Part shown: positions 4,395 to 42,003 of the stretch, piece after piece
Layout: each line of letters begins with the position of its first letter
Numbering within the stretch: position 1 is the first letter of the stretch
DNA from: Polyangiaceae bacterium
GTDB lineage: Bacteria; Myxococcota_A; Polyangia; Polyangiales; Polyangiaceae
DNA: 64,000 nucleotides
Direction: 5' to 3'
Assembly: GCA_025936115.1 (NCBI GenBank)
Contig: JAICTZ010000003.1
Location: 124,001-188,000 of the forward strand
Program-made: the position numbers and the translations under genes
The notes under the pieces: model-generated
Database searches by the model: none
The model's input: only the letters and a program-made list of their open reading frames with translations
Told to the model about the DNA's origin: nothing

Positions 4395-4418
4395 GTGACC
4401 TTCGCCTTCCGCTCCCGA

Positions 4419-5450
4419 TCAGCTGTCGTCTTCCACACGGCCCGTCGCCGCGGAGACTTTGGGCCCCGTCTTACGCAATCCGAGCGCGCCGCCGAGCGCA
4501 TCGAACCAAAACCCCGCGCCGAGACTCACGGCGAGCGTCGTGATGATCCAGCCGAGCAGGCGGAGCGGCCAGGGCTTCGGATCCGTCAACTTTAGGCCTT
4601 CCCAGCCGACCGGCAACTTCGAGAGATTGAGTGCCTGGAGCGCGGGGGCGCCGGACGGCTCGGTGACGGTCGCGCGGTCGAGGCCAGCCGGCGGCTCGGA
4701 CTCGGGCGGGGTCGCGCTACCGGCAGGTCGTGCTGTCGAACGGTCGTAAAATACTTGGGCCGTGGAGGCGACCGCCTCGCGCAGGGCACCGTTGTGCCAG
4801 AGCGCGCTGACGACCCGCGTCGAATCCGCGTTGGTGATTGCCGTCACCGCCAGCCCGAGGACGAGACTGAGGAGTTGCGCCTTGCGCGCGTACCAGCCGG
4901 AAGCGCGCGACATGCGGTCGTTGAACCAAGTTTCGATGCCACTCGTCACGAGCTCCATTTCTTCGTCGAGGCGCGTCGCTTTCGCCTCCGCCTGCTCGAA
5001 AATGAGCTCGAGGGCGTGCTTCAAGTCAGCATGCCCGGTGATCGCGGCGATCGCCTCACGGGCGCCTTTCAAGAGCTTCGTCGCCCCGAGCTCTCCCGCG
5101 AGCGAGCTACGCCGGCGGAGCACGTCGAGGAGCGCCAGCGCGAACGTCTTGCTCGGAATGTAGGACGGTAGGGCGAGCTCGCTTGGACTGAGCAGCCGCT
5201 TGCCGCGCAAGTTCTTGATCAACGGATGCGCATACACCTCGGCGAGCAGCGTGCTCTCGTCCGCCGCCGGTGTTTTGTCGCTGCGCCGGGCGCGCGCATC
5301 GCCTTTCAGCATCCCCTCGAGCGCCTGATACAGATTCTGCGCGCGCAGACGCAGCGCCGAAGCGACGAGCTCCTGGATCGTCGTGACGATCAGCGCGAGC
5401 AACAAGTACAGGAACGTGATCCCAATCGCGACGTCGAGAACGATCGTCAT
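4419..5450 (-). CDS. conserved membrane protein of unknown function
   Basis: A 343-residue membrane protein. An N-terminal helix (DVAIGITFLYLLLALIVTTI) is followed by LVASALRLRAQNLYQALEGM, a pattern I associate with a widespread uncharacterised bacterial membrane protein family having a long cytoplasmic domain. Further hydrophobic segments lie at about 190-210 (LLSLVLGLAVTAITNADSTR) and 300-325 (LLGWIITTLAVSLGAGFWFD), the last followed by ALGGALGLRKTGPK and an acidic tail. The middle region (about 80-185) is charged and helical. It lies 24 bases upstream of the muramidase gene on the same strand, so the two are probably co-transcribed. No enzymatic motif is visible. Confidence 0.72.
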   Translation of the reverse strand: MTIVLDVAIGITFLYLLLALIVTTIQELVASALRLRAQNLYQALEGMLKGDARARRSDKTPAADESTLLAEVYAHPLIKNLRGKRLLSPSELALPSYIPSKTFALALLDVLRRRSSLAGELGATKLLKGAREAIAAITGHADLKHALELIFEQAEAKATRLDEEMELVTSGIETWFNDRMSRASGWYARKAQLLSLVLGLAVTAITNADSTRVVSALWHNGALREAVASTAQVFYDRSTARPAGSATPPESEPPAGLDRATVTEPSGAPALQALNLSKLPVGWEGLKLTDPKPWPLRLLGWIITTLAVSLGAGFWFDALGGALGLRKTGPKVSAATGRVEDDS

Positions 5451-27617: not shown

Positions 27618-28736
27618 ATGAGAGAACGATTGGACAGCCGAATCGATCGCCTTCAGCGGCGCTGTGTCGCCGAGCCCGGGGTGCTCTCGCTCGCCGGCGG
27701 ATTGCCCGCGCCGCAAACCTTTCCCATGGAGGCGCTCGCCCACGCGCTCGGGCGCGCCGGCAGCGACGCGCTGCAATATGACTGGCCCGAAGGGCGCGAG
27801 GCGCTGCGAGCGTTCGTCGCCGAGCGCTTGCAGCGCCGCGGCGCGAGCGTCGAAGCCGACCAAGTGCTCATCACGAACGGCGCGCAACAAGCGCTCGACA
27901 TCGCCGTGCAAATCGGCTGTCGCCACAGCCGAGGCATTCGCGTGCCGCGCGCGTGTTACCCGGGTGCACTCGAGCTTTTTGCGGCGCGCGGCTTGCAGCT
28001 CGTGAGCGAAGACGCGCCCGCCGACACGAGCTACGTGATGCCCGTCGTCGAAAATCCGACGGGAATCGCAGTGCCAAGGCCCGCGCTCGACGCCCTGCTC
28101 CAGGGTGACGGCTACGTGATCGAAGACGACGCGTACGCCGAGTTGCGCTTCGACGGGCGTACGCCACCCCCTCTCCTCGCCACGAAGCCCGAGCGGGTCT
28201 TCTACGTCGGCACGTTTTCGAAGACGCTCTGCCCAGGCTTGCGCGTCGGCTGGCTCGTCACGCCGCGACGCTTTCGTCGCGCCGCGCGCCGCGCCAAGCG
28301 CTTGATCGATTTGCAGGCGAACACGCTCGCTCAATGCGTCCTCGAGCAGTACCTCGCCGAGAACGACTTCGAACAGCGCCTCACGTGGTTGCGACGCTTT
28401 TACGCCGAGCGCGCCGCAGCGCTCGTGCGCGCGCTGCGCCGCCGTCTGCCGAGCGTCTCCTTCGTCGAGCCGGAAGGCGGGTTTTCGGTCTGGGCAGTCA
28501 CCGAGGAGCGCGGCGACGACGTCGAGTTCTTGGCGACCGCGTTACGTTACGGCGTGAGCGTCGATCCTGGACGTGACTTTCGGCCGAGCGGCGACTCGGA
28601 GCCGATCGCGTTCAGGCTCGCCTTCTCCTCGTTGCCTCCGGAACGCATGGACGAAGCCGTAGCCCGCCTCGCCCGCGCCTTCCGCTCTTTCGCCCGCGCG
28701 CATCGTCACACCGAGCGTCAACGTCGGGCGGTGTGA
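27618..28736 (+). CDS. PLP-dependent class I aminotransferase (MocR/AAT-like)
   Basis: A 372-residue fold-type I PLP enzyme. It contains LSLAGGLPAPQTFPMEALAH near residue 25, LQYDWPEGREALRAFVAERL (about 55), LITNGAQQALDIAVQIG (about 90), VVENPTGIAVPRPALDAL (about 145, Asn-Pro pair) and the cofactor lysine in VFYVGTFSKTLCPGLRVGWL (about residue 207). The pattern matches the aminotransferase half of MocR-type and 2-aminoadipate/aromatic aminotransferases, but no GntR DNA-binding domain is attached. It catalyses amino-group transfer between an amino acid and a 2-oxo acid; the specific substrate is undecided. Divergent from the C39-peptidase operon with about 65 bases between starts. Confidence 0.87.
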   Translation: MRERLDSRIDRLQRRCVAEPGVLSLAGGLPAPQTFPMEALAHALGRAGSDALQYDWPEGREALRAFVAERLQRRGASVEADQVLITNGAQQALDIAVQIGCRHSRGIRVPRACYPGALELFAARGLQLVSEDAPADTSYVMPVVENPTGIAVPRPALDALLQGDGYVIEDDAYAELRFDGRTPPPLLATKPERVFYVGTFSKTLCPGLRVGWLVTPRRFRRAARRAKRLIDLQANTLAQCVLEQYLAENDFEQRLTWLRRFYAERAAALVRALRRRLPSVSFVEPEGGFSVWAVTEERGDDVEFLATALRYGVSVDPGRDFRPSGDSEPIAFRLAFSSLPPERMDEAVARLARAFRSFARAHRHTERQRRAV

Positions 28737-28846
28737 CCCGAATTCGGCTGGCCGCTCGGCGTCGAAATCTTGCGGCTGCGGGGGCGGTGCGCTTCGCGAA
28801 CGTGGCAACTGGGTGGAACGGGCGACTTTATGCTACGAACGGAGGG

Positions 28847-29950
28847 ATGCTTCGTTCGAGAGGCTCGCGCGGTTGGGTGGGAGCCGCAGTGATTTGGACC
28901 GGCGTTTCGTGCGCGTCGAAATTCACGAACGTCGAGGACTGGAGCCACGCCGGTCGGTCATCGCTCGGCGGTGGCTCGGGAACGAGCGCAGGGCGCTCCA
29001 GTGGCGGCGCGGGGATGGGCGCCCGCGCGGGGATGGGCGCGACGGCCGGCATGGAGACCGAGGGTGGACAGAGCGCAGGAGGCAGTGCGGGCAGCGAGGT
29101 CGCTGGCGACACGGGGAACGCAGGCGCGCCCGTCACGAGCTCGGGCGGAACGACGAGTAGCGGCGGAACGTCGATGACCGGCGGCAGCGGCGCGAGGGTC
29201 GGCATCGCGGGTGAGGCCGGCGACACGAGTCCAGGCAGCGGCGGCAGCGCAGGTGCGCCGCCCCGTGATCCCATCAGCCGCGATGGGCTCGTGTACTGGT
29301 TCTCGGCCGATTCGGGCGTGACTCAGACGAACGGCGGCGTCTCGAAGTGGCTCGACCGCTCGGGTAACGGCAACGATGCTGCACAAATCTCGAACGATAG
29401 CCGGCCGCGGCTCGGCAGCTTCGCCGACACCGGCGCGCCCGCGCTCGTTTTCGACGGCGACAACGACTACCTCGGCCTCGAGCCGCTGCGCGCGACCTTC
29501 GAGGGCGGCGTCACGTTCTTCGCCGTGGCGCGCCCGACTGACGGCTCGTACTGCATGCCGCTGCTCGAGCTCTCGAACGGCTCGGAGATCGACGATGTGA
29601 GCTTCGGGTGGACCAACACTGCGCTTTCCTACGAAGTCACTGAAGCCTTCGTGAGCGGCCAAGCCGGTGCATTCACGAACGGTGAGCCGCGACTCGTCGA
29701 GGTCACGCACGCGGTATCCCGCGACGTAAACCTATGGATGAACGGTCTCGCGAACGGCTTCGGCATGTCCGACTTGCCCGTCGCCGTCACGCGCGGCCAG
29801 ACCTTCGTCGGCAAGAGCCTGTATCAAGGCTGCACCACGTGGAACGGCGAGATCGCCGAGCTCATCCTCTACGCGCGCGAGCTCGAGCTCGGCGAGCGGC
29901 AAGGTGTCGAGACCTACCTCCAGGGCAAGTGGGGCTGCTGCGGGAGTTGA
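28847..29950 (+). CDS. surface protein with Gly/Ser linker and LamG-like domain
   Basis: A 367-residue exported protein. A short N-terminal hydrophobic segment (GWVGAAVIWTGVSCASKF) ends in a weak lipobox. Residues about 35-140 are a low-complexity Gly/Ser/Ala/Thr linker typical of Polyangia surface lipoproteins. The C-terminal 220 residues look like a concanavalin A-like LamG domain: LVYWFSADSGVTQTNGGVSK, WLDRSGNGNDAAQ, ALVFDGDNDYLGLEPL, VNLWMNGLANGF and WNGEIAELILYARELELGER. Such domains bind glycans. It is followed by two glycoside hydrolases with the same linker design, suggesting a common carbohydrate task. GGAGGG is directly adjacent to the ATG, so a GTG 30 bases later is a possible alternative start. 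Confidence 0.7.
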   Translation: MLRSRGSRGWVGAAVIWTGVSCASKFTNVEDWSHAGRSSLGGGSGTSAGRSSGGAGMGARAGMGATAGMETEGGQSAGGSAGSEVAGDTGNAGAPVTSSGGTTSSGGTSMTGGSGARVGIAGEAGDTSPGSGGSAGAPPRDPISRDGLVYWFSADSGVTQTNGGVSKWLDRSGNGNDAAQISNDSRPRLGSFADTGAPALVFDGDNDYLGLEPLRATFEGGVTFFAVARPTDGSYCMPLLELSNGSEIDDVSFGWTNTALSYEVTEAFVSGQAGAFTNGEPRLVEVTHAVSRDVNLWMNGLANGFGMSDLPVAVTRGQTFVGKSLYQGCTTWNGEIAELILYARELELGERQGVETYLQGKWGCCGS

Positions 29951-30052
29951 GCCCGCGCTAAAAGCGGCGTGACCCGGCCGCGTGAATCGCGCCAATGAGG
30001 GGCCCGGCCTCTTTCTTCGCCACAGCTGCGCTCGTTCCGACAGAAGGCGTAG

Positions 30053-32566
30053 ATGAGAGGCCGCGATCTCGCACGTACGGCTCGGTACCTGACCGCCGTG
30101 CTGGTCATGGCGTGTCAATCTGAGGGGCCGAGCGACCCGAACACAGGCGCAAGAGGAGGGACCGCGGGCACGGGCACGGGCGCCGCCGGGGAAACCCGGG
30201 CGGGAACGAGTGGTTCGGCCGGCAGCCAGACCCCCTCGGGAGGCTCTGCTGGCGCCCAGATCGGCGCCGGAGGCTCTCCTTCTACGTCCGGGGGTCATGG
30301 GGGCGCGACCGGTCAAGGAGGCGCGGCAGCTGGCGCCCCTACCCTCGGCGGGCGCGCGGGCTCAGGCGGCACGACCGGCACCGGAGGCGCCGGAGTGGGC
30401 GGGGGTGGCACCGGCTCGGCAGGCGTCGCGGCGTCCGGCGCCGCGGGCAGCGCGGGAAGCGCGGGCGCGCTCTGCGGAACGGCGACCGCACTGGATCCAC
30501 TATCGAAGTCGCTCGCGGGCACGTGGGACTTCACTCCGAGCGGGGGGAGCAAGCGCTCGATTCAAGTCCCGGGAGGCGGCTGGGCCAAGCAGGGCATCGG
30601 CACCTCGAGCGGCACCTATGCGACGCAGATCACGGTCCCCGATTCGGGCGGCCCCCAAACCACACTCATCGAATTCGGTGCCATAAACTTCCAGGCCACC
30701 CTCTCGGTGGACGGTAAGCCCGTCGGCACGAACACCACGTCGTTTACTCCTTCCGTTTTCGACGTGACAGAGTTCGTGACACCGGGAAAGCAACATGCGC
30801 TCTCCGTGTTGGTCAACGGCGGAGGCGCTCTGAAGTCGGGCGGTAAGTCGCTCGTTCCCAACGCCGCCGGATGGTCGCAAAACGTGGCGCAGGGCATCTT
30901 CCGCTCGGCGACGCTGCGCGTGTATCCGGACGTGTACGTGAGCGACGCCTTCGTGCGAACCAGCGTCACCGACGACACGCTGACGTACGACGTAACGATC
31001 ACGAATACGGGCGCAGCGAGCCAAGACGTGACGCTCTCCGGGACCCTCAGCTCGTGGAACTGCGACGTGGCGACCTATCCAACCGTTGCGGACGTCGCCG
31101 TGACCATCGCAGCGGGGACCACCACGACTACCACCGTGGGCCCGATCAAATGGGGGCTCGGCACCGGTTCGTATTGGTGGCCAAACGTGCCCTACCAGGC
31201 CGACTACAAGGCACGGCTCCACAACCTGACGCTCGAGCTGAGCCACGGCGGGAAGGTCCTTCACACGACGAGCGTGAGGTTCGGCTTTCGGCAGAGCGAA
31301 CGGCGTCGGGCGGACAGCACCCACGTCTATTATTACCTGAACGGCATCCGCGTGAACTTGCGCGGAGACAACATTCAGGGCGCGGACTACGACAGCATCG
31401 ACGACGGTGGCAAGGGCGATGCTTACGACACGCTACCGGGCTTCTTGCCGCCCACGGCACAGAGCGCCGGCTTTCCGCAAGCCGTCCGCAATTACCAGCG
31501 CCTGAACTTCAACTTCGTGCGCGTCCACCAGGAGCTCGCCTCGCCGTACATGCTCGACACGGCGGACGAGCTCGGGCTCATGTTGATGGGCGAGACCGCG
31601 ATTCGCGGCAGCAGCAACGATCAGGACTTCGCGGCTGGGCACGACAACATGGTGAGCCACGCGCGCGCGATGGTGCTTCGCGACCGCAATCACCCGTCGA
31701 TCATCCGCTGGAGCCAAGCCAACGAGCCCAACGGCGCGAGCACCGATTCGAATCAGTTCGAGGCCGACCTCTTCAACGCCATCACCAAGCTCGACGGCAC
31801 ACGTCCGATCTCGGTGGATCTCTTCCCCGGCAACGCGAACTATGGTCTTGCGAGTCCCGGCTTCGCGACGAGCCACCACTACACGAACGGCATCGGCGCG
31901 TACTCAGAGGATGTGAACGTCAGTAGCGACAACCCGTACGGCCAGGGCGAGTACATTTGGAACCACGATAATTCGCGCCAAGGGCTCACTTGGTTTGGAA
32001 CGTCCGCCATGGCGATGCGTCGCCAGAATGCCTCGGACGTACGGCCCTACACGCTCTTGTCCGGGTGGGCGAGCTTCGTTCCCGGAGTCCTCGCGTCGAA
32101 GATGATCATCGAACAGGGCGGTCCGCCCGTATTCGGCGAGGACAACCTGCCCGACCCGTGGTCGAGCCCGATCATTCGGCGCATCCAGGCTGGATTCAGC
32201 CCCGTGCTCGTCGCCGATCAAGCCTATTGGGAGGCCGCCAAGCTGTCGAACACCAACGGCGATTGGCCTGCCTCCGTTCCCGCGCTCACGAAGGGATCCA
32301 CCCGCGCGACCACGCTGCTCGTGTTCAACGACACGTTCAGCGGGACCACGGTCGACGTCACGTGGGAGGTTCACGCCGACAGCGCGACCGGGACGATGGC
32401 GGGCTCGGGCACGTTCTCGATTGACGTGCCGCTCGCCTCCATGGCGACCAAGTCGATCAGTGTGACCGCGCCGAGCTCGGGGACGAAGTGCTACCTCGTC
32501 CTTCGCGCGCAAAAGAACGGTGCGACTTTGTTCCAAGAGTCCGATGAAGTGTTCAACCTTCAATGA
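30053..32566 (+). CDS. glycoside hydrolase family 2 lipoprotein, copy 1
   Basis: An 837-residue surface enzyme. Signal segment YLTAVLVMACQSEG gives a lipobox Cys at residue 22, followed by a Gly-rich linker to about 140. Then the GH2 sugar-binding beta-sandwich (LAGTWDFTPSGGSKRSIQVP, FGAINFQATLSVDGKPVG, VAQGIFRSATLRVYPDVYVS), an Ig-like domain and the TIM barrel: LNFNFVRVHQELASPYMLDT, NHPSIIRWSQANEPNGAST (acid/base near Glu558) and GQGEYIWNHDN (probable nucleophile Glu633). A beta domain closes the protein. Substrate cannot be told: beta-galactoside, mannoside or glucuronide. Its stop overlaps an ATG, and the next gene's likely start lies 39 bases on. AAGG before the ATG supports the start. 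Confidence 0.83.
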   Translation: MRGRDLARTARYLTAVLVMACQSEGPSDPNTGARGGTAGTGTGAAGETRAGTSGSAGSQTPSGGSAGAQIGAGGSPSTSGGHGGATGQGGAAAGAPTLGGRAGSGGTTGTGGAGVGGGGTGSAGVAASGAAGSAGSAGALCGTATALDPLSKSLAGTWDFTPSGGSKRSIQVPGGGWAKQGIGTSSGTYATQITVPDSGGPQTTLIEFGAINFQATLSVDGKPVGTNTTSFTPSVFDVTEFVTPGKQHALSVLVNGGGALKSGGKSLVPNAAGWSQNVAQGIFRSATLRVYPDVYVSDAFVRTSVTDDTLTYDVTITNTGAASQDVTLSGTLSSWNCDVATYPTVADVAVTIAAGTTTTTTVGPIKWGLGTGSYWWPNVPYQADYKARLHNLTLELSHGGKVLHTTSVRFGFRQSERRRADSTHVYYYLNGIRVNLRGDNIQGADYDSIDDGGKGDAYDTLPGFLPPTAQSAGFPQAVRNYQRLNFNFVRVHQELASPYMLDTADELGLMLMGETAIRGSSNDQDFAAGHDNMVSHARAMVLRDRNHPSIIRWSQANEPNGASTDSNQFEADLFNAITKLDGTRPISVDLFPGNANYGLASPGFATSHHYTNGIGAYSEDVNVSSDNPYGQGEYIWNHDNSRQGLTWFGTSAMAMRRQNASDVRPYTLLSGWASFVPGVLASKMIIEQGGPPVFGEDNLPDPWSSPIIRRIQAGFSPVLVADQAYWEAAKLSNTNGDWPASVPALTKGSTRATTLLVFNDTFSGTTVDVTWEVHADSATGTMAGSGTFSIDVPLASMATKSISVTAPSSGTKCYLVLRAQKNGATLFQESDEVFNLQ

Positions 32567-32604
32567 ATCTCCGACCACAGGACTTCTGGAGAAAACGGGA
32601 TATC

Positions 32605-35094
32605 ATGCATCGCGCGCTGCCCATCCTCGCAATCACGCTCTTCGCTTGCAGTCAGGCAAACCCGGGCCGTCAACAAAACGAAACGTCCGGCGGTAGCGGC
32701 GGAATTCCTAGCGCTAGCGGCGGCCGAGCCGAAGGGAGCGGAGGCTCGAACGCAGTCACGGGCGGTTCGGGCGGTCGTTCAGCGTCCACGGGCGGCAATC
32801 AGGGCGGCGGCGGGGTGCCTGGTGCGAGCGGCACTGCCGGCGGCGCCAATGTTGCCGGCGCGGCGGGCGGTCGCGCGGCGAGCGGCGGTGCGGCCGGCGA
32901 AGGAGCGGGCGGCGCTCCGTCCGGCGGAGCAGGACAGGCGGGGGCCGGCGGCTCCGGAGGAAGCAGCGGTGCAGCGCCTACCGGTGCCCGTTTGGTTCAG
33001 AACTTCAATCAGGGTTGGAAGTTCAAGCGCGCCGACGTGATGGGCGCCGATGCGACCGATTTCGACGACGGCTCGTGGGACAACATCGGCCTACCGCACT
33101 CGTTCAGCCTGCCCTACTTCATGTCCTCGAAGTTCTACGTCGGGTACGGCTGGTATCGAAAACACTTCACGGTGCCGTCGAGCTGGTCGAACAAGAGCGT
33201 GTTCCTCGAGTTTCAGGCGGCGTTCGACCAAGCGCAAATCTACGTCAACGGCAAGCAGGTCGGAGAACACATCGGCGGCTACAACGGCTTTTCCATCGAC
33301 ATCGGTTCCGCCATCAAGAGCGGAGACAACGTCGTCGCCGTTCGCTTGAACAACAACTGGAACGCGCAGCTCCCGCCCATCACCGGCGATCACACGTTCC
33401 AGGGCGGTCTTTATCGCGACGTGAACGTCGTGGTCACCGATCCGCTGCACGTGACCTGGTACGGCACCTGGGTGACGACGCCGACCTTGGCAACGAATTC
33501 GGGGTCGTCGAGCAGCGTAGAGATCAAGACGGAGGTGCAGAACAACCGCGCCACGGCGGTCAACGCGACACTCGAGACGGACATCGTCGACAAGGACGGC
33601 AAGGTGGTCGCCACCGTCTCGTCTCAGCAACAGATCGACGCGGGCAAGACGGTGACGTTCGACCAAACCACGCCCGCCGTCAGTAGCCCCGCCCTGTGGC
33701 ACCCGGACCATCCCACGCTGTACAAGGCGCTGTCCCACCTGTCTGACGACACGGGGACGGTCGACGACTTCACGACCACCTTCGGCTTCCGCTGGTTCAG
33801 CTGGTCGGCGACGCAGGGATTCTCGTTGAACGGCTCGCATTATTGGATTCGAGGGGGCAACGTCCATCAGGATCACGCCGGTTGGGTTATCGGCGTGAGC
33901 GACTCTGCGCTCTATCGCGACGTGAAGCTCGTCAAGGACGCGGGCATGAACTTCATTCGCGGCTCGCACTATCCGAAGGCACCGGCCTTTGCCGACGCTT
34001 GCGACGAGCTCGGCGTCTTGTTTTGGTCGGAAAACTGCTTCTGGGGCGGCTTCGGCGGCGGCCCCGGAGGCTGGTCCTATAGCGGCGCGTATCCGAGCAC
34101 GTCCGCCGACTTCGACAAATACGACGCCAACGTTCTCGCGAGCCTCACGGACATGATCCGTATCCATCGCAATCACCCGAGCATCATCGTCTGGAGCATG
34201 GGGAACGAAGACTTCTTCAACGGCAGCGGTCCCGCAGACAGGGTGATCGCGCTACTCAAGAAGGAAGTCGCGTTGACCCACCAGCTCGATCCGGCGCCGA
34301 CCGGGCGGCCCGCGGCGATCGGCGGCGCTCAATCCAAGATCGGCAGCACGGAGCCCGGCACCTTGGGTGACGTGGCCGGATACAACGGCGACGGCGTGGG
34401 CTACAACGATCCGGGGATACCCAACATGGTGTCCGAGTACGGCGCCGACGTGAGCTCGACCAGGCCGGGCAACTACGATCCCGGCTGGGGGAACTTGACG
34501 GTGTCGAACGGCATGGCGGCCCAGCCCGCGTGGCGCAGCGGGATCTCCCGCTGGTGCATGTTCGATTACGGCAGCCAGATGAGCGCGCAGTACATCAACT
34601 CGGGTCTCATCGACTATTTCCGGATCCCGAAGCGATCGTACTACTGGTATCGAAACACCTACGCCAACGTGCCGCCGCCGACCTGGCCGACCGCGGGCAC
34701 CGCCGCCGGCTTGAGTCTCACGGCGAGCACGACGGCCCTGTCTGCCGTGGACGGCACCCAGGACGCCTGGCTCTTGGTCAGCGTCGTCGATTCGAGCGGC
34801 AAGCCCATCAACAACACCGCCACGATAACGCTCACGCTCAAGTCGGGTCCGGGCGAATTTCCCACGGGGCCGAGCATCACGTTCACTCCGCCGGGCGCCG
34901 GTTCGGCATCCGATATCGCCATGCGCGACGGCCAAGCCGCCATCGAATTCCGAACCTATTACTCCGGCACCTCGGTGATCGAGGCGAGCTCACCGGGGCT
35001 AACGAGCTCGAGCGTGACCATCACCTCGCAAGGCAGCCCCGTCTGGGTCGAAGGCACGTCACCCAAAGTGTCGCCGCGCCCTTACCAACCGTGA
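32605..35094 (+). CDS. glycoside hydrolase family 2 lipoprotein, copy 2
   Basis: An 829-residue enzyme. MHRALPILAITLFACSQANP carries a lipobox Cys at residue 15. A Gly/Ser-rich linker runs to about 130. The GH2 order is clear: sandwich (LPHSFSLPYFMSSKFYVGYG, WYRKHFTVPSSW), Ig-like domain (HPDHPTLYKALSHL) and TIM barrel with HPSIIVWSMGNEDFF (acid/base Glu535) and PNMVSEYGADVSS (nucleophile Glu611). A C-terminal invasin-like Ig domain (SLTASTTALSAVDGTQDAWL) ends the protein. It resembles beta-galactosidase-type GH2 enzymes more than copy 1 does. The start is supported by GGAG about a dozen bases upstream. It is probably co-transcribed with copy 1. Confidence 0.86.
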   Translation: MHRALPILAITLFACSQANPGRQQNETSGGSGGIPSASGGRAEGSGGSNAVTGGSGGRSASTGGNQGGGGVPGASGTAGGANVAGAAGGRAASGGAAGEGAGGAPSGGAGQAGAGGSGGSSGAAPTGARLVQNFNQGWKFKRADVMGADATDFDDGSWDNIGLPHSFSLPYFMSSKFYVGYGWYRKHFTVPSSWSNKSVFLEFQAAFDQAQIYVNGKQVGEHIGGYNGFSIDIGSAIKSGDNVVAVRLNNNWNAQLPPITGDHTFQGGLYRDVNVVVTDPLHVTWYGTWVTTPTLATNSGSSSSVEIKTEVQNNRATAVNATLETDIVDKDGKVVATVSSQQQIDAGKTVTFDQTTPAVSSPALWHPDHPTLYKALSHLSDDTGTVDDFTTTFGFRWFSWSATQGFSLNGSHYWIRGGNVHQDHAGWVIGVSDSALYRDVKLVKDAGMNFIRGSHYPKAPAFADACDELGVLFWSENCFWGGFGGGPGGWSYSGAYPSTSADFDKYDANVLASLTDMIRIHRNHPSIIVWSMGNEDFFNGSGPADRVIALLKKEVALTHQLDPAPTGRPAAIGGAQSKIGSTEPGTLGDVAGYNGDGVGYNDPGIPNMVSEYGADVSSTRPGNYDPGWGNLTVSNGMAAQPAWRSGISRWCMFDYGSQMSAQYINSGLIDYFRIPKRSYYWYRNTYANVPPPTWPTAGTAAGLSLTASTTALSAVDGTQDAWLLVSVVDSSGKPINNTATITLTLKSGPGEFPTGPSITFTPPGAGSASDIAMRDGQAAIEFRTYYSGTSVIEASSPGLTSSSVTITSQGSPVWVEGTSPKVSPRPYQP

Positions 35095-35213
35095 ATCGCG
35101 CGCCGCCCGAGCGCGAGCTCACTTGCCCGAGCTGCGTGTGACGACGAGCCCATAGACACGGCTCGGAGCACTGGCAGTGAGAAGGAGGTCCACACCATCC
35201 GCTCCTGCAGGGT

Positions 35214-35234
35214 CCGGCTCCCAACCGGAGCCGG
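35214..35234. terminator. 8-bp stem hairpin between convergent GH2 and metE genes
   Basis: CCGGCTCC (35214-35221) pairs perfectly with GGAGCCGG (35227-35234) around a 5-base loop. It lies 120 bases after the GH2 stop and 24 bases past the metE stop, so it could terminate either unit. There is no T-run on either side. Confidence 0.45.
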
Positions 35235-35257
35235 CACGGTTCGGCGCGCGTCGAGAC

Positions 35258-37582
35258 CTACCTCGAAGACGAATGCGACTGCTCTGGCAATTGAGCGCGC
35301 ACCGCGCGAGCCGCCGCGACCATGGCGGAAAGCGCGGCCTCGACTTCCGGCCATTGCCGCGTTTTGAGCCCGCAGTCCGGATTTACCCAGAGTCGCTCGG
35401 CCGGCAGCACCTCCATCGCGCGCCGGATGAGCAGCACCATTTCTTCTTGGCTCGGCACGCGCTTGGAGTGAATGTCGTAGACGCCAGGGCCCACGTCGTT
35501 CGGGTAGCGGTAGCGGCCGAAATCGGTGAGCAGCTCCATCTTCGAGCGCGAGGTTTCGATCGAGACCACGTCGGCGTCCATGCGCGCCACGGCGTCGAGG
35601 ATGTCGCCGAACTCGGAGTAACACATGTGCGTGTGGATCTGCGTCTCGTCGCGGGCGCCCGCAGTCGCGAGCAAGAACGCGTCCACCGCCCAGCCGAGGT
35701 ATTCGCCCCAGCCGGCTCGCCGGAGCGGTAGGCCTTCACGAATCGCCGGCTCGTCGACCTGAATCACGGCGATGCCCGCGCTCTCGAGGTCGGTCACTTC
35801 GTCACGGAGAGCGAGCGCGATTTGCCGGCACGACTCGGCGAGCGGCTGATCGTCGCGCACGAAGGACCATTTGAGGATCGTGACGGGGCCGGTCAGCATG
35901 CCTTTGACGGGTTTTTGGCTGAGACTCTGGGCGTAGCGCGCCCAATCGAGCGTGAGCGGTCCGCGGCGCAGCACGTCGCCGAAGAGCACCGGTGGTTTGA
36001 CGCAACGCGAGCCGTAGCTCTGGACCCAGCCGTGCTCGGTGAACGCGAAGCCGTCGAGGTTTTCCCCGAAGTACTCGACCATGTCGTTGCGCTCGAACTC
36101 GCCGTGCACGAGTACGTCGAGGCCGAGCGCTGCTTGGCGTTCGAGCGCGCGGCGCGTCTCTGCTTCCAAAAATTGCCGGTAATCGGCGGCTGCGAGCGCT
36201 CCCGCGCGAAAATCCGCGCGCGCCTTGCGCACCGCCGCCGTCTGCGGAAACGAGCCGATCGTCGTCGTCGGCAACAGCGGCAACTTGAGCCGAGCGCCCT
36301 GCACGAGCTTGCGCACCGCGAACGGCGCATGACGGCGTAAGAGCTCCGGGGAGACGGCCGCGGTCCGGGCTCGCACCGCTGCATTTCGCGTTCGCCCCGA
36401 CGCACGGCGGGTCTCGAGCGCCGCGCGCGCGGTGTCGAAAGCCGCGCCGTGCGGCCGCGGCATTTCGGCGGCGCTCGCGAGCGCCGCGACTTCTTCGAGC
36501 TTTTGGCGCGCGAAGGCGAGCCAGCTCCGAACCTCGGCATCGAGCGCGTGCTCCGCGCCGAGATCCACCGGCACGTGCAAGAGCGAGCACGACGGCGCCA
36601 CGAGGACGCGCTCGGGCCCGAGTCGCTCGACGGCGCGCCGCACGAGCGCGTGGGCTCGGTCGAGATCGGCGCGCCACACGTTGCGTCCGTCGATCACGCC
36701 GAGCGAGAGGCTCTGCCGCTCAGCGAGCACCTCGAGCACGCCGTCGAGCTGCTCGGGGGCGCGGACGAGGTCAACGTGGAGTCCCTCGCAACCGGACTCT
36801 GCGACGAGCCGCGCGTGCTCCTCGACGCTCTCGAAGTACGTCGCGACCACGAGCTCGGGCCGGCGCCGAAGCTCACCGAGCGAGCGGAGCGCGCTGCGAA
36901 AAGCGCTTTGACTGCGTTGATCGAGGTCGAGCGCGAGCCAGGGCTCATCGAGCTGCACCGCTCGCACGCCCTCCTCCTTCATTCGCGCCAAAAGCTCGGC
37001 GTAAGCGGGCAAGAGCTGCTCGAGCAGGTCGAGCCGGTGACGCCCGGCGCCTTTGAAGGGCGCCCATTTCGCCAGCAGGAGAAACGACACCGGGCCGAGC
37101 AGCACGGGACGCGGTTCGATAGCGAGCACGCGTGCCTCGGCGAGCTCGGCGAAAATCTTGCTCGCGTCGAGCCGGAAGCTTTGGTCCGGCTCGAGCTCGG
37201 GCACGATGTAGTGGTAGTTCGTGTCGAACCATTTCGTCATCTCGAGCGCTTCGAGATCGACGCCGGCAGCCTTGTCTTGCAGTCCCCTCGCCATCGCGAA
37301 ATAACGCGCGAGCGGATCCTCGATGCGCGCGTAGCGCTCGGGCACGACGCCGAAGAGCACCGCCGTATCGAGCACGTGGTCGTAGAGCGAGAAGTCGTTG
37401 CTCGGCACGAGCTCGATGCCCGCGTCTCGCATTCCGAGCCAGTGCCGTTGCCGGAGCTCGCGCGCGACGGCCAAGAGCTCGGCCTTCGAACGCTTGCCGC
37501 CCCAAAAATCCTCGAGAGCTCGCTTGAGCTCGCGGTTCGCTCCGATGCGTGGATGGCCGAGGCAGCTCGAGAGAACGGACAT
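35258..37582 (-). CDS. metE: cobalamin-independent methionine synthase MetE
   Basis: A 774-residue enzyme that transfers a methyl group from 5-methyltetrahydropteroyl-polyglutamate to homocysteine without B12. Both halves of the double barrel are present. The N-terminal half begins LSSCLGHPRIGANRELKRAL with QLDEPWLALDL in the middle. The catalytic half begins LPTTTIGSFPQTAAVRKARA. Zinc ligands are visible in QIHTHMCYSEFGDILDA (His and Cys), VVSIETSRSKMELL (Glu) and VNPDCGLKTRQWPE (Cys). AAGGAG about 8 bases upstream fixes the ATG at 37582. It is last in the nrdA-nrdB-metE operon, 22 bases after nrdB, so it is predicted to be under the cobalamin riboswitch upstream of nrdA. Confidence 0.95.
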   Translation of the reverse strand: MSVLSSCLGHPRIGANRELKRALEDFWGGKRSKAELLAVARELRQRHWLGMRDAGIELVPSNDFSLYDHVLDTAVLFGVVPERYARIEDPLARYFAMARGLQDKAAGVDLEALEMTKWFDTNYHYIVPELEPDQSFRLDASKIFAELAEARVLAIEPRPVLLGPVSFLLLAKWAPFKGAGRHRLDLLEQLLPAYAELLARMKEEGVRAVQLDEPWLALDLDQRSQSAFRSALRSLGELRRRPELVVATYFESVEEHARLVAESGCEGLHVDLVRAPEQLDGVLEVLAERQSLSLGVIDGRNVWRADLDRAHALVRRAVERLGPERVLVAPSCSLLHVPVDLGAEHALDAEVRSWLAFARQKLEEVAALASAAEMPRPHGAAFDTARAALETRRASGRTRNAAVRARTAAVSPELLRRHAPFAVRKLVQGARLKLPLLPTTTIGSFPQTAAVRKARADFRAGALAAADYRQFLEAETRRALERQAALGLDVLVHGEFERNDMVEYFGENLDGFAFTEHGWVQSYGSRCVKPPVLFGDVLRRGPLTLDWARYAQSLSQKPVKGMLTGPVTILKWSFVRDDQPLAESCRQIALALRDEVTDLESAGIAVIQVDEPAIREGLPLRRAGWGEYLGWAVDAFLLATAGARDETQIHTHMCYSEFGDILDAVARMDADVVSIETSRSKMELLTDFGRYRYPNDVGPGVYDIHSKRVPSQEEMVLLIRRAMEVLPAERLWVNPDCGLKTRQWPEVEAALSAMVAAARAVRAQLPEQSHSSSR

Positions 37583-37604
37583 GACGAATGCTCCTTTTAT
37601 GGGT

Positions 37605-38627
37605 TCAAAATGCGCTATCGAGGGCGACGTCGCCGCGAATACCGACCTGATACGCCGACACGCGCCGTTCGAAGAAATTCGTATGTTCCTGCACGTCTTG
37701 CAGATCCATGAACGCAAACGGATTTTTCGAACCGTAGCGTTTGCCGAATCCGAGAGTGAGCAGACGTTGATCGGCGCAGAACTCGAGGTATTGCCGCACG
37801 TCGCCGAGCGAGAGACCTGCGACGCCGCCCTGCAGGAGATCCGCGGCGAATTCCGCCTCACATTCGACGGCCTCGTCGACCATGTTTGCTACGTCGCGTT
37901 CGAGCTCCGCGTCGAAGAGCTCGGGCTCCTCGCGCCTGACGGTGCGGACGGCCTCGAACGCGAACGCCATGTGCGCGCTCTCGTCGCGAAACACCCAACT
38001 GGTGCCTGCCGCGAGTCCGTGCAAGAGCCCGCGCGAGCGCAAGAAATACACGTAGGCAAACGCGCCGAAGAAGAACAACCCTTCGACGCAGGCGGCGAAG
38101 CAGATCAGATTCTTCACGAATTCGCGCCGTTCGCCCCGCGTCTCGAGCCGCGTCAGCCGCGCCGAGCCTTCGAGAAAGCGCAGGCAAAAATCCGCCTTGC
38201 GCCGGATCGACGGCACGTTTTCGACGGCGGCGAAGGCTCGGTGCCGCGCAGCCGGATCGGGCAGGTACGTGTCGAGCAGCGTGAGGTAAAACTGCACGTG
38301 CAGCGCTTCCTCGTAAAGCTGGCGCGAGAGGTACATGCGCGCTTCCGGCGCGTTCAGGTGGCGGTAAAGGCACAGGACGACGTTGTTCGCGACGATCGAA
38401 TCGCCCGTCGCGAAGAAGGCGACGAGCCGCTCGATCAAATGCCGCTCCGCCGGCGTCATGCGTTCGGCGAGATCGGCCGCGTCAGTCCCGAAGTCGACTT
38501 CCTCGACCGTCCAGGTGTTCTTGATCGCCGCGCGGTACATCTCGAAGAACGCGGGATAGGCGAGCGGGCGCAGCGTGAGGCAGAGCCCCGGCTCGAGCAG
38601 GCGCGCGGGACGGCCGGCCGAGCTCAT
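37605..38627 (-). CDS. nrdB: class I ribonucleotide reductase, beta subunit NrdB
   Basis: A 340-residue small subunit that houses the diiron centre and tyrosyl radical. Ligand motifs are FFATGDSIVANN (Asp), LYEEALHVQFYLTLLDTY (Glu-x-x-His), FVKNLICFAACVEGLFFFGA (Glu) and WVFRDESAHMAFAFEAVR (Glu-x-x-His). The tyrosine four residues after the first ligand His (HVQFY) corresponds to the radical Tyr122 of E. coli, so this is a tyrosyl-radical enzyme rather than a Phe-type class Ic. The start overlaps the nrdA stop (ATGA), coupling the two subunits one to one. It requires oxygen and no cobalamin. The C-terminus (YQVGIRGDVALDSAF) ends in the acidic/aromatic pattern that docks to NrdA. Confidence 0.94.
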   Translation of the reverse strand: MSSAGRPARLLEPGLCLTLRPLAYPAFFEMYRAAIKNTWTVEEVDFGTDAADLAERMTPAERHLIERLVAFFATGDSIVANNVVLCLYRHLNAPEARMYLSRQLYEEALHVQFYLTLLDTYLPDPAARHRAFAAVENVPSIRRKADFCLRFLEGSARLTRLETRGERREFVKNLICFAACVEGLFFFGAFAYVYFLRSRGLLHGLAAGTSWVFRDESAHMAFAFEAVRTVRREEPELFDAELERDVANMVDEAVECEAEFAADLLQGGVAGLSLGDVRQYLEFCADQRLLTLGFGKRYGSKNPFAFMDLQDVQEHTNFFERRVSAYQVGIRGDVALDSAF

Positions 38628-41053
38628 TGACACGCCTCGCAGCTTTCCGGGTTCTCGAGCGAACAAGCGAGCGCGGCGGCGACCCGCGTTTCGTCGGGCA
38701 ACGCGCCGAGTGCCGCTTCCGTCTTCGCGATGCGCGTCGCCGGACGCGAGCGCAGGTAGTACGTCGTCTTGAGCCCCGATTTCCAGGCGTGAAAGTACAT
38801 GCTCGAGAGCTTTTCGATGCTCGGGCTCTCCGCGAACAAATTGAGCGATTGGCTCTGATCGATGAAGGCGCCGCGCTCGGCTGCCATGTCGATGAGCGAG
38901 CGCATCGGCAGCTCCCAGGCCGTGCGGTAGACGCGGCGGAGCTCCTCCGGCAATTCCGCCATGCCCTGCACGGAGCCCTCGGCGAGCTTCAGGCGTGCGC
39001 GCAGCGCCTCCGTCCAGAGTCCCAGACGTTTGAGGTCGGCGACGAGGTAACGGTTCACCTGCAAGAAATCGCCGGACAGCGTCTCACGCTTGAACAGGTT
39101 CGAGACCAACGGCTCGACGCACTCCGAGCAACCGGCGATGGAAGCGATTGTCGCGGTAGGCGCGACGGCGACGAGCAGGGAGTTGCGGAGGCCGGTCACG
39201 GCAATACGAGCGCGGAGCGCTTCCCAGCGCTCGCGGTCGCTCACCTCGGCGCTCCAGGCATCGAATTGGAGCTCACCTTGCGCGGCGCGCGTTTCGGCGA
39301 AGGTCGGGTGGGCGCCGCGCTCGCTCGCCAAATCCGCGGAGGTCGAGAGCGCGTGAAAGTACACGTCTTCCGCGATGCGGCGCGAGAGCCTGCGCGCCTC
39401 GGGTGCGTCGAACGCGAGGCCGAGCTGGAAGAACAGGTCGTGGAGGCCCATGACGCCGAGTCCCACGGGCCGCCACGCGAGGTTCGAGCCGCGCGCCGAA
39501 TCGATTGGGTAAAAGCCGAGGTCGATCACGCGATCGAGCTGGCGCACGACCGCGCGCACCGTGCGTGCGAGCTTGTCGAAATCGAACGCGCGCACGCCGT
39601 CGTCCGTCACGTGCGTGTGCCGCGCGAGGTTGATCGAAGCGAGATTGCAGACGGCGGTCTCGCTTTCCGACGTGACCTCGAGGATTTCGGTGCAGAGGTT
39701 CGAGAGATGCACGGTGCGGCCCGGCAGCGCGGTCTGGTTGCAGCAGCGGTTCGCGCGATCCTTGAACGTCATCCAGCCGTTGCCGGTCTCGGCCAGCGTG
39801 CGCAGCATGCGCGCGTAGAGCTCGCGCGCTTTGAGCGTCTTTTTCGCGAGTCCCCGCCGTTCCGCCTCGACGTAGGCGAGCTCGAAGGCGTCGCCGAAGA
39901 GATCCGGCAGCTCCGGCACGTCCTTCGGATCGAACAGGCTCCAGAGCTCGTCGCGCTCGACCCGCCGCATGAACAGATCCGGCACCCAGTTCGCGAGGTT
40001 CAGATGGTGCGTGCGGCGCGCGTCGTCGCCGGTATTGTTGCGAAGCTCGAGGAACTCCTCGATGTCGGCGTGCCACGTCTCGAGGTACACGGCGCACGCG
40101 CCCTTGCGTTTGCCGCCCTGGTTGACGGCCGCAACCGAAGCATCGAGCGTCTTGAGCCACGGCACGATGCCGTTCGAGAGGCCGTTCGTGCTCGCGATCA
40201 GCGAGCCGCGCGAGCGCACGCGGTGGTACGCGATCCCGATGCCGCCCGAAAACTTCGAGAGTTTGGCGATGTCGGCGTAGCGGCCGTAGATCGCCGCGAG
40301 GTCGTCGAGCGGCGAGTCGAGCAAGAAGCAGCTCGAAAGTTGCTCATGACGCGTACCGGCGTTGAAGAGCGTCGGTGAGCTCGGCAGGTATTCGAGCCCC
40401 GAGAGCAAGCGGAAGAGCTCGAGCGCCTCGAACACCGTCTCGGACAGCGCGCAGGCGATACGCATGAAGAAGTGCTCGGGCGTTTCGATGACGAGTCGCG
40501 TCGTCGGATGGCGCAGGAGGTAGCGGTCGTAGAGCGTGCGCAGCCCGAAGTATTCGAATTCGTCGCTGCGGCGCGTGGCCGCCTCGTTCAGTTTTCTCGC
40601 CGAGCGGGCGACGAACGCGCACAAGCGCGGGTTGACGAGGCCGAGCTCGGCGCCGCGCGCGACGGACTGAGAAAATGCTTGGATTTCCTGGCCGCGCACC
40701 TCTTTGTCGATGTAGGTCGCGAGCAGGCGCGCCGCGAGTTTGCCGTACTCGGGTTCTTCGGCGATGAGCGACGCCGCGGTTTGGATCGAGAGCTGATCGA
40801 GCTCGAGCGTGGTCGCGCCGTCGTAGAGGCCGCTGATCGTCTTGGTTGCGACGCGCATCGGGTCCACGTCCTCGAGCCCCGACGCCGAGCGGCTGACGGC
40901 GCGCACGATCTTGTTCAAATCGACGGGTTCGGTCGAACCGTTGCGCTTTCGGACTTTCATGGCGGTGCGCGGCGACATCGCAGCGCTCGGTTGGGTGGTG
41001 GCGACGCCGGACGACCACAGGTCGTCCTTGTGCAGGGCAGTTTCGAACGTCAT
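38624..41053 (-). CDS. nrdA: class I ribonucleotide reductase, alpha subunit NrdA
   Basis: An 809-residue large subunit that reduces ribonucleotides. An ATP-cone lies at residues about 33-120 (MKVRKRNGSTEPVDLNKIVR), so activity is allosterically controlled by ATP/dATP. Catalytic features: LSSCFLLDSPLDDLA (first Cys), TVHLSNLCTEILEV (Asn-x-Cys-x-Glu), ETAVCNLASINL (second redox Cys), TTYYLRSRPATR (radical-transfer Tyr pair) and the C-terminal shuttle Cys pair in ESCEACQ. ATG at 41053 has AGGAG about 8 bases upstream; the open frame upstream of it lies in leader RNA. First gene of the operon behind a cobalamin riboswitch, with nrdB overlapping by four bases. Confidence 0.95.
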   Translation of the reverse strand: MTFETALHKDDLWSSGVATTQPSAAMSPRTAMKVRKRNGSTEPVDLNKIVRAVSRSASGLEDVDPMRVATKTISGLYDGATTLELDQLSIQTAASLIAEEPEYGKLAARLLATYIDKEVRGQEIQAFSQSVARGAELGLVNPRLCAFVARSARKLNEAATRRSDEFEYFGLRTLYDRYLLRHPTTRLVIETPEHFFMRIACALSETVFEALELFRLLSGLEYLPSSPTLFNAGTRHEQLSSCFLLDSPLDDLAAIYGRYADIAKLSKFSGGIGIAYHRVRSRGSLIASTNGLSNGIVPWLKTLDASVAAVNQGGKRKGACAVYLETWHADIEEFLELRNNTGDDARRTHHLNLANWVPDLFMRRVERDELWSLFDPKDVPELPDLFGDAFELAYVEAERRGLAKKTLKARELYARMLRTLAETGNGWMTFKDRANRCCNQTALPGRTVHLSNLCTEILEVTSESETAVCNLASINLARHTHVTDDGVRAFDFDKLARTVRAVVRQLDRVIDLGFYPIDSARGSNLAWRPVGLGVMGLHDLFFQLGLAFDAPEARRLSRRIAEDVYFHALSTSADLASERGAHPTFAETRAAQGELQFDAWSAEVSDRERWEALRARIAVTGLRNSLLVAVAPTATIASIAGCSECVEPLVSNLFKRETLSGDFLQVNRYLVADLKRLGLWTEALRARLKLAEGSVQGMAELPEELRRVYRTAWELPMRSLIDMAAERGAFIDQSQSLNLFAESPSIEKLSSMYFHAWKSGLKTTYYLRSRPATRIAKTEAALGALPDETRVAAALACSLENPESCEACQ

Positions 41054-41071
41054 GGCTCGGCTCCTCTCGGT

Positions 41072-41090
41072 GAGCGGGACCAGCCCGCTC
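41072..41090 (-). promoter_or_regulatory. leader hairpin beside the nrdA ribosome site
   Basis: Read on the minus strand, GAGCGGG and CCCGCTC form a perfect 7-bp stem with a 5-base loop. It ends about 6 bases before the AGGAG of nrdA. The absence of a T-run argues against a terminator, so it may take part in translational switching below the riboswitch. This function is inference. Confidence 0.35.
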
Positions 41091-41204
41091 GCGCTGGTGC
41101 GAGGCTTACGGATCAACGAATGAGGCCGCGCCCGGAGGACACACGTCTCCCGGGTGCCGACCTACCGCCTACCCGCGAGGCTCGAGGTCAAACGGCCCGT
41201 TTCA

Positions 41205-41400
41205 GTCCCGGTGCCGTGTGCTGGCAGGTCTTCGGGCTCCGCGAGCTCTGCCGGCTTTCGCCGGGTTCCTACTGTCCACCGCTTCCCGTGCCCAGAAGGG
41301 CCAGTGCGCCAGTGGAGGTCGTTCTCGCTTACCGCTGCGGGGCAGCCCCGGAATTACGCCGGGTTCCCTTTAGCCTGGGCAGGGGCCCAGGCACCAACAC
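41205..41400 (-). ncRNA. cobalamin (AdoCbl) riboswitch controlling nrdA-nrdB-metE
   Basis: The minus strand carries the conserved elements of a B12 riboswitch in order: GGTGCC near 41395-41390, GGGAACCCGG followed by AATTCCGGGGCTGCCC near 41370-41345, the B12 box GCCCCGCAGCGGTAAGC at about 41347-41327, and GAAGACCTGCC near 41234-41223. GGCACC at 41215-41210 can close the outer P1 helix with the first element. It lies between a promoter and the nrdA ribosome site, about 150 bases before the start codon. By established behaviour of the class, binding of a cobalamin lowers expression downstream. A perfect AAACGG/CCGTTT palindrome at 41190-41202 directly follows and may belong to the expression platform. 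Confidence 0.93.
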
Positions 41401-41407
41401 GGCGCTC

Positions 41408-41437
41408 AACATACGGTGCACGGCTGCGCAGTGTCAA
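41408..41437 (-). promoter_or_regulatory. sigma70-like promoter of the nrdA-nrdB-metE operon
   Basis: On the minus strand TTGACA (41437-41432) and TATGTT (41413-41408) are separated by 18 bases. The predicted transcript would begin near 41401, exactly at the 5' edge of the riboswitch. The -35 match is perfect and such an AT-rich -10 is rare in this GC-rich sequence. Confidence 0.7.
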
Positions 41438-41544
41438 GCACGCTCCGGCTCGAAGAGCGCGTCTAGCCTTTGCCCTCGCAGAGCGCCCGGCGTTATGATC
41501 AGTAGCTCGGGCGCGCCTCACGTGCGCTCGAAGGGCGAGTATCG

Positions 41545-42003
41545 ATGAGGGAAGAGGCGCGGAAACCATTGCTCTCCGTCCATGCAGGCGGTCACCGCGC
41601 GGGGCTTCCGCTCGCGAGTGTTCGCGAAATCATGCGGCCGCTACCGATCACGAGCATCGCGGGCGCCCCGGCCTTCGTGCTCGGACTGTCGCTGATTCGT
41701 GGCGTTTCGGTACCGATCGTCGACCTCGGCGCCTTGCTCGGCGAAACGAGCGTACGCACGCCGTTCACGCGTTTCGTGCGGCTCGAGCTCGGCACGCGCT
41801 CGGTTGCGCTCGCCGTGCAAGCCGTCACGGGCGTCATCGAGGTGGCACCTGCATCCCTCGCCGCGATGCCCCCACTCTTGAGCCGGGCCGCGAACACGCT
41901 CGTAGACACGCTCGCGCTGCACGACAGCGAGCTCTTGCTCGTGCTCGAGACGGCGCGCCTCGTGGCCGAGCTGCCTGTGCTCCAGGCCGAGGCCTCGGCG
42001 TGA
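41545..42003 (+). CDS. cheW: CheW-like coupling protein, first of two
   Basis: A 152-residue CheW-domain scaffold linking chemoreceptor to CheA kinase. It shows the family pattern: GGHRAGLPLASVREIMRPLP, ITSIAGAPAFVLGLSLIRGV and SVPIVDLGALLG, RFVRLELGTRSVALAVQAVT and LLLVLETARLVAELPV. No other domain is attached. It is the first gene of a seven-gene operon; the stop overlaps the CheR gene start (GTGA). An AAGGGCGAG sequence precedes the ATG. It diverges from the riboswitch-controlled operon with about 100 bases between the nrdA promoter and this start. In Wsp systems the equivalent is WspB or WspD. Confidence 0.88.
   Translation: MREEARKPLLSVHAGGHRAGLPLASVREIMRPLPITSIAGAPAFVLGLSLIRGVSVPIVDLGALLGETSVRTPFTRFVRLELGTRSVALAVQAVTGVIEVAPASLAAMPPLLSRAANTLVDTLALHDSELLLVLETARLVAELPVLQAEASA

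Follow-up and report, generated by a model that had tools for sequence, protein, structure and literature searches.

Why should a ribonucleotide reductase and a methionine synthase, enzymes of unrelated pathways, stand behind one and the same regulatory RNA? The question is raised by a 64-kb stretch of DNA from a Polyangiaceae bacterium (hereafter, the window), in which the minus-strand genes nrdA, nrdB and metE follow a single cobalamin riboswitch. Our analysis indicates that these genes probably constitute a B12-independence operon, in which one class I cobalamin riboswitch leads a single nrdA-nrdB-metE transcript, and which would have arisen by the landing of nrdAB between a metE riboswitch and metE.

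A cobalamin riboswitch ahead of three tightly packed genes

A covariance-model search (cmscan, gathering thresholds) returned a single Rfam match in the window, the cobalamin riboswitch RF00174, on the minus strand at 41206-41413. The match spans the full model (1-189) and scores 95.9 bits, compared with a gathering score of 31.5 bits, which bears out the B12 riboswitch that a sequence-only reading of this DNA had described. The aptamer contains the L5 motif CCCCGCA, and the P13-like hairpin that follows it (41159-41189, minus strand) has the loop CGCGGG, which is complementary to L5 and is its putative kissing-loop partner. Upstream, our scan recovered the sigma-70-like promoter TTGACA-18-TATGTT that had also been proposed (41408-41437, minus strand, 10 of 12 matches), position 41437 being where the earlier reading had let the unit end.

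Behind the leader, nrdA (38624-41053, on the minus strand like the other features of this unit) begins with an ATG preceded by the Shine-Dalgarno sequence GAGAGGAG (41061-41068). According to family models, it encodes the large subunit of a class I ribonucleotide reductase with barrel, N-terminal and ATP-cone domains (NrdE_NrdA, 695.9 bits; cut-off, 341.05). The small subunit gene, nrdB (37605-38627), was placed by Pfam (Ribonuc_red_sm, 255.2 bits; cut-off, 33.6), and its product carries the motif E-x2-H-x3-Y as EALHVQFY, which we take to be the radical tyrosine position. NrdB has 16 NCBIfam matches, all of them below their cut-offs; the class I assignment of NrdA and NrdB holds, with the subclass of NrdB placed no finer than the Pfam family. 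The third gene, metE (35258-37582), encodes a cobalamin-independent methionine synthase (met_syn_B12ind, 1058.1 bits; cut-off, 929.95) with both Pfam domains, PF08267 and PF01717. As claimed in the sequence-only reading, nrdA and nrdB overlap by ATGA, and 22 nt separate the nrdB stop codon from the metE ATG; metE has its own ribosome-binding site and sits 3.5 kb downstream of the leader.

The same reading had seen neither promoter nor terminator between the genes. In positions 35000-41700, a scan limited to sigma-70-type sites found two promoter-like sites on both strands (0.4 ± 0.6 in shuffles), TTGACA-18-TATGTT being the only one on the minus strand, so that the tightly packed genes have no such site between them. 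Terminator-like matches were not above chance (6, compared with 5.3 ± 2.4 in shuffles), and the sole one on the minus strand, a weak match, falls inside nrdB.

The genome to which the window belongs (8.06 Mb in 83 contigs, 93% complete, 3.36% contamination; window contig, 346 kb) also holds a B12-dependent counterpart for each enzyme, as had been predicted. NrdJ is encoded on contig C52 (584.1 bits summed over joined pieces; cut-off, 399.95), and MetH is encoded at C47:18235-21948 and C5:398526-402269 (1549.2 and 1560.2 bits over joined pieces; cut-off, 1010.85). The presence of two MetH genes in one genome, both well above the curated cut-off, is an observation in its own right. When cobalamin is imported, it would occupy the switch and lower expression of the B12-independent reductase and methionine synthase, with NrdJ and MetH doing the work; under B12 scarcity, the nrdA-nrdB-metE operon would be on.

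Cobalamin riboswitches number three in this genome. Besides that of the window, one lies ahead of a gene for a TonB-dependent receptor, as with BtuB, and the third precedes a lipoprotein-like open reading frame (ORF) with no Pfam match (L180:6705-7466, plus strand). A lipoprotein-like ORF of 410 aa, also with no Pfam match, lies behind the riboswitch-preceded receptor gene (L179:2806-4038, minus strand); by eye it is beta-propeller-like and perhaps BtuG-like. Of the biosynthetic proteins, CobB had no match in this 93% complete genome, and CobI/CbiL had a sub-threshold match alone, in a 508-aa frame. Judged from these two families, synthesis appears to be absent, and the cell seems to import B12 and to keep B12-free enzymes in reserve.

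Separate and joined states within one genus

G007, a genome of the same genus, carries riboswitch-metE without nrdAB, and its nrdAB lies elsewhere under a riboswitch of its own; G001 likewise has riboswitch-nrdA and riboswitch-metE as separate loci. About 39 kb of the window (8765-48030) are collinear in blocks with G007 contig C66 (5 to 26707), relative to which nrdAB is extra. On the 5′ side, the last base collinear with the G007 metE leader is 41125, and on the 3′ side collinearity resumes at 37598, 16 nt before the metE ATG; the blocks that flank nrdAB in the window are about 82 nt apart in G007. Directly upstream of metE, the Shine-Dalgarno region (AAAAGGAG, followed by the ATG) can be aligned with its counterpart before the stand-alone metE of G007, and in our tree the window metE is sister to the G007 metE with a support of 100/100. 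The window nrdA does not group with the G007 nrdA and is weakly paired with that of G016 (86/91). Next to metE, another ~6.6 kb of the window are extra (28692-35310) and include a family 2 glycoside hydrolase (32563-35094).

The leader of the window unit mixes two kinds of sequence. Its promoter and aptamer, together with the chemotaxis genes cheR and cheW, give a collinear alignment of 72% over 1545 nt with the G007 metE riboswitch locus, with which the aptamer is syntenic and the stretch GCTTGACACT at the promoter aligns. The last 71 nt before nrdA, compared with the G007 metE leader, show nothing above chance (0.44 of shuffles). They do hold a 19-nt hairpin, GAGCGGGCTGGTCCCGCTC (41072-41090), directly before the nrdA Shine-Dalgarno sequence, which is common with the G007 nrdA leader at 18 of 19 positions, a score that none of 2000 shuffles reaches. 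With 0-1 mismatches, this hairpin was found among 225 sequences only before the nrdA of the window genome, G007 and Polyangium fumosum, and before the nrdA of G026 and G062 its stem is altered on both sides. As judged from these comparisons, the leader looks chimeric, with its promoter and aptamer from a metE locus and a pre-Shine-Dalgarno hairpin of the nrdA type.

An orthologue of the gene beside the G007 nrdAB lies on contig C39 of the window genome, where there is no nrdAB; for the other flank, the match is just 35%. A decayed nrdAB at this locus was considered, and no relic of it was found. Because of the collinearity, the mixed leader, the trees and this orthologue without nrdAB, the simplest history would be an insertion, in which nrdAB came between the metE riboswitch and metE and brought along its proximal leader hairpin and ribosome-binding site.

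The reverse history, in which the joined operon is ancestral at this locus and G007 lost nrdAB between riboswitch and metE while keeping nrdAB elsewhere, is unlikely in our judgement. The collinearity fits a loss equally well, and the window nrdA stands apart from the G007 nrdA in the tree, as for different copies (their grouping, with P = 0.065, is not rejected). Nevertheless, a precise loss sparing a complete metE leader is less simple, and it would leave to be accounted for a leader with a metE-syntenic part and an nrdA-type hairpin, the C39 locus with its one well-matched flank, and the riboswitches that directly precede metE in G001, G092, G095, G108, G109 and G181.

How the switch may act

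When the leader was scanned for an intrinsic terminator, none was seen. Because of this, control of the operon would most likely be translational: repression would act on nrdA, reach nrdB by coupling and extend into metE through Rho polarity. Outside Firmicutes, translation attenuation is reported to be the commonest mode (PMC2258182), and a transcriptional mode is described for Propionibacterium acnes nrdAB, much of whose transcription stops before the first gene (PMC3848588).

These two accounts bear on a narrower reading that we regard as rather unlikely, namely that the switch governs nrdA and nrdB only. The nrdA ribosome-binding site would be hidden, and metE, on the same mRNA, would escape through its own Shine-Dalgarno sequence without polarity. 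The missing intrinsic terminator, the reported prevalence of translation attenuation and the likeness of the metE Shine-Dalgarno region to that of a stand-alone metE all suit such an escape. The tight packing of the genes and the transcriptional mode reported for P. acnes do not, and as the joined units of the window and of G062 (below) differ in origin, it would be odd if metE had gained nothing from sharing the switch.

In 10 of the 19 leaders scanned, a second hairpin like CGCCCGnGGGGGCGA, with a loop resembling the L13 motif, lies 105-201 nt past the cobalamin aptamer (L207, L185, L050, L016, L029, L051, L196, L015, L154 and L202). At two or fewer mismatches, 0.011 such hairpins are expected per leader, for a motif taken from a subset of these leaders. 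By type, the hairpin occurs in eight of the nine nrdA leaders other than that of the window and in two metE leaders; among the 19, those of the window, of the btuB-like gene in the same genome and of the G007 metE are without it. It may belong to the expression platform as a component so far unrecognised.

That the window leader is without a hairpin carried by most other nrdA leaders would suit a switch that is unresponsive to B12, or tuned to another corrinoid, with a constitutive operon behind it. We consider this improbable, since the aptamer matches the full model, keeps L5 and the complementary hairpin loop and is placed between the promoter-like site and nrdA. A functional switch, predicted to bind B12 and to repress the whole operon, is the reading retained here.

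Several observations weigh against this reading or against parts of it. The direction of the change, gain of nrdAB in the window or its loss in G007, is read from a comparison of these two genomes at this locus and is provisional. Other riboswitches align with the aptamer part of the window leader alone (G001 metE, 84.5% over 251 nt; G062, 88.4% over 155 nt; G007 nrdA, 75.7% over 255 nt), and since the closest core is that of G062, the assignment of the aptamer to the metE locus rests on synteny. The GAGCGGGCTGGTCCCGCTC hairpin was not found within three mismatches in several nrdA leaders (among them those of G016, Minicystis, Archangium and Nannocystis), and it is G016 whose NrdA is nearest to that of the window in the tree. 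Among 16 leaders, L5 is unchanged as CCCCGCA in all, while the L13-like loops, identified by eye, differ (CGCGGG in 8, CGAGGG or CGTGGG in 7 and CCGGGG in 1). In folding calculations, the mean unpaired probability of the nrdA Shine-Dalgarno sequence is 0.33 when the P13 segment is included and 0.31 when it is left out, a nearly equal accessibility that reveals no clear switch. Additionally, the want of an intrinsic terminator in the leader is a point on this side too, independent translation of metE is possible from the Shine-Dalgarno sequence that follows the 22-nt gap, and non-sigma-70 promoters inside nrdB would escape our promoter scan. Finally, G004 (same genus, 88% complete) has riboswitch-nrdA and no NrdJ-type match, which counts against a strict pairing of the switch with the B12-dependent enzyme.

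Joined units in relatives and known systems

The joined order recurs outside the window. On the single 11.4-Mb contig of G062, a riboswitch is followed by nrdA, nrdB, an ORF of 140 aa of a thioesterase family and metE, all tightly packed. In L013, a 5.3-kb contig of a metagenome-assembled genome (MAG) labelled Nitrospira, nrdA, nrdB and metE stand in the same order; the contig starts at nrdA, with the leader outside it, and its nrdA groups with that of Minicystis (90/84). L013 is the only same-order unit among the best 80 of at least 596 named loci; in L043 (behind nrdB) and L058 (ahead of nrdA), metE is near nrdAB on the opposite strand. A third case may be seen in G011, where nrdA residues ~421-742, with one stop, run in an open frame into metE residues ~330-642 and no nrdB is left; this nrdA::metE fusion relic most plausibly derives from an nrdA-nrdB-metE order that decayed and suffered a deletion.

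The metE of G062 differs in origin from that of the window. In approximately unbiased (AU) tests, a metE clade of the window and G062 was rejected (P = 6e-13), as was one clade of the three joined metE genes (P = 6e-7); a metE grouping of G062 and L013 gave P = 0.196. For nrdA, the three joined genes together gave P = 0.025, window and G007 P = 0.065, and G062 and L013 P = 0.0735. The groups were chosen after the gene orders had been seen, and these P values are indicative. Because of the values of 0.196 for metE and 0.0735 for nrdA, the units of G062 and L013 may share an origin, and the comparison with relatives as a whole suggests that joined units were assembled more than once from separately switched genes.

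The G062 unit also bears on whether the junction in the window is an artefact of assembly or binning. The 83 contigs and 3.36% contamination of the genome allow for such an error, as do, for L013, a contig coverage of 2.99 and a MAG label at odds with its nrdA. An artefact is nonetheless very improbable: collinearity of the 346-kb contig with G007 extends to either side of the junction, the GC and GC3 contents of nrdA, nrdB and metE match those of four neighbour genes, and G062 has the joined unit on one contig.

Across 59 genomes of relatives, the window genome included, an NrdA-type gene was found in 27 (one being the G011 relic), in 17 of which a cobalamin riboswitch lies within ~430 nt upstream of nrdA, as compared by hand from coordinates. 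A weak NrdJ-like match, judged in relatives by identity and frame length (the family model confirmed the window genome only), is present in 56 of the 59, the others being G004, G047 and G052; no cobalamin riboswitch was found in G047, G052, G029 or G051. MetE has matches at E 1e-60 or better in 21 of 183 genomes of the order. A riboswitch directly precedes metE in seven of the 21 (G001, G007, G092, where the gene is broken, G095, G108, G109 and G181), and metE stands behind riboswitch-nrdAB in two, the window genome and G062. Neither arrangement was seen in the other 12, which include G004, whose contig breaks off within metE, and the decayed G011. Phylum-wide, the gene is rare, with matches at E 1e-100 in 10 of 377 genomes sampled evenly from a larger group; at the one new metE locus of that survey, in G366, the 1.5 kb examined held no nrdB.

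Thirteen named-genome loci, picked from the best 80 of at least 596 mostly for titles naming Myxococcota, were also scanned, and a riboswitch precedes nrdA in six: Minicystis rosea, Archangium lansinium, Polyangium fumosum, Nannocystis bainbridge, a Myxococcales MAG and an Acidobacteriota-labelled MAG. Among the other seven, L013, L017, L035 and L046 have a contig start at most ~200 nt before the nrdA match. The NrdA of G009, from the same family as the window genome, is identical along the aligned part to that of L051, a named Myxococcota MAG, in keeping with a myxobacterial origin. Two further loci are of separate interest. In the single-contig genome G027, a broken metE (L193, C1:3804559-3805871) is closely preceded by a sub-threshold riboswitch-like match of 27.5 bits and is perhaps riboswitch-metE in decay, and one short contig of G035 (L216, C957) has two nrdB-like stretches, at 1365-2381 and 4102-4632.

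Riboswitch-nrdAB and riboswitch-metE are each known, and the joined unit is the unusual part. Borovok et al. reportedly described in 2006 a Streptomyces coelicolor nrdABS operon with a cobalamin riboswitch. There, the riboswitch likewise stands ahead of a class I nrdAB and NrdJ is reported to be present too; the operon is not known to include metE, its third gene is nrdS and the phylum is a different one. Bacillus methanolicus has both B12-independent enzymes preceded by cobalamin riboswitches in one genome, listed as (AdoCbl)-metE and (AdoCbl)-nrdAB in PMC4342826, there with two separate riboswitches and transcripts, whereas one riboswitch stands ahead of both in the window. In P. acnes, cobalamin riboswitches lie on nrdAB and nrdDG and nrdJ is in the genome; the description of the unit in PMC3848588 does not mention metE. 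For Desulfovibrio and Desulfuromonas, B12 elements on nrdDG were proposed to let B12 repress the B12-independent isozyme while NrdJ is used; there the enzyme is NrdDG, and the unit has no metE as the passage in PMC545781 describes it. This isozyme logic is already in print (PMC545781 and PMC9600662). We found no report of a joined nrdAB-metE unit in the open-access literature searched; an earlier mention in Rodionov 2003, Nahvi 2004 or Borovok 2006 is possible.

The two unrelated enzymes joined here share the cofactor they do without, and their shared regulator is an RNA domain. The window and G007 present the joined and the separate state within one genus, and both breakpoints can be read; in G062, a further unit, of another origin, has an additional gene between nrdB and metE. 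Two matters become testable in this way: how well a riboswitch leader withstands an exchange of its downstream half, and whether control that possibly acts at the first ribosome-binding site can reach a gene 3.5 kb away. On balance, we lean towards the view that B12-free operons form repeatedly in myxobacteria, with genes of unrelated pathways that share a riboswitch type coming under one copy of it; in the window, a chimeric leader, with a sensor from the metE locus and an output hairpin of the nrdA type, would control both.

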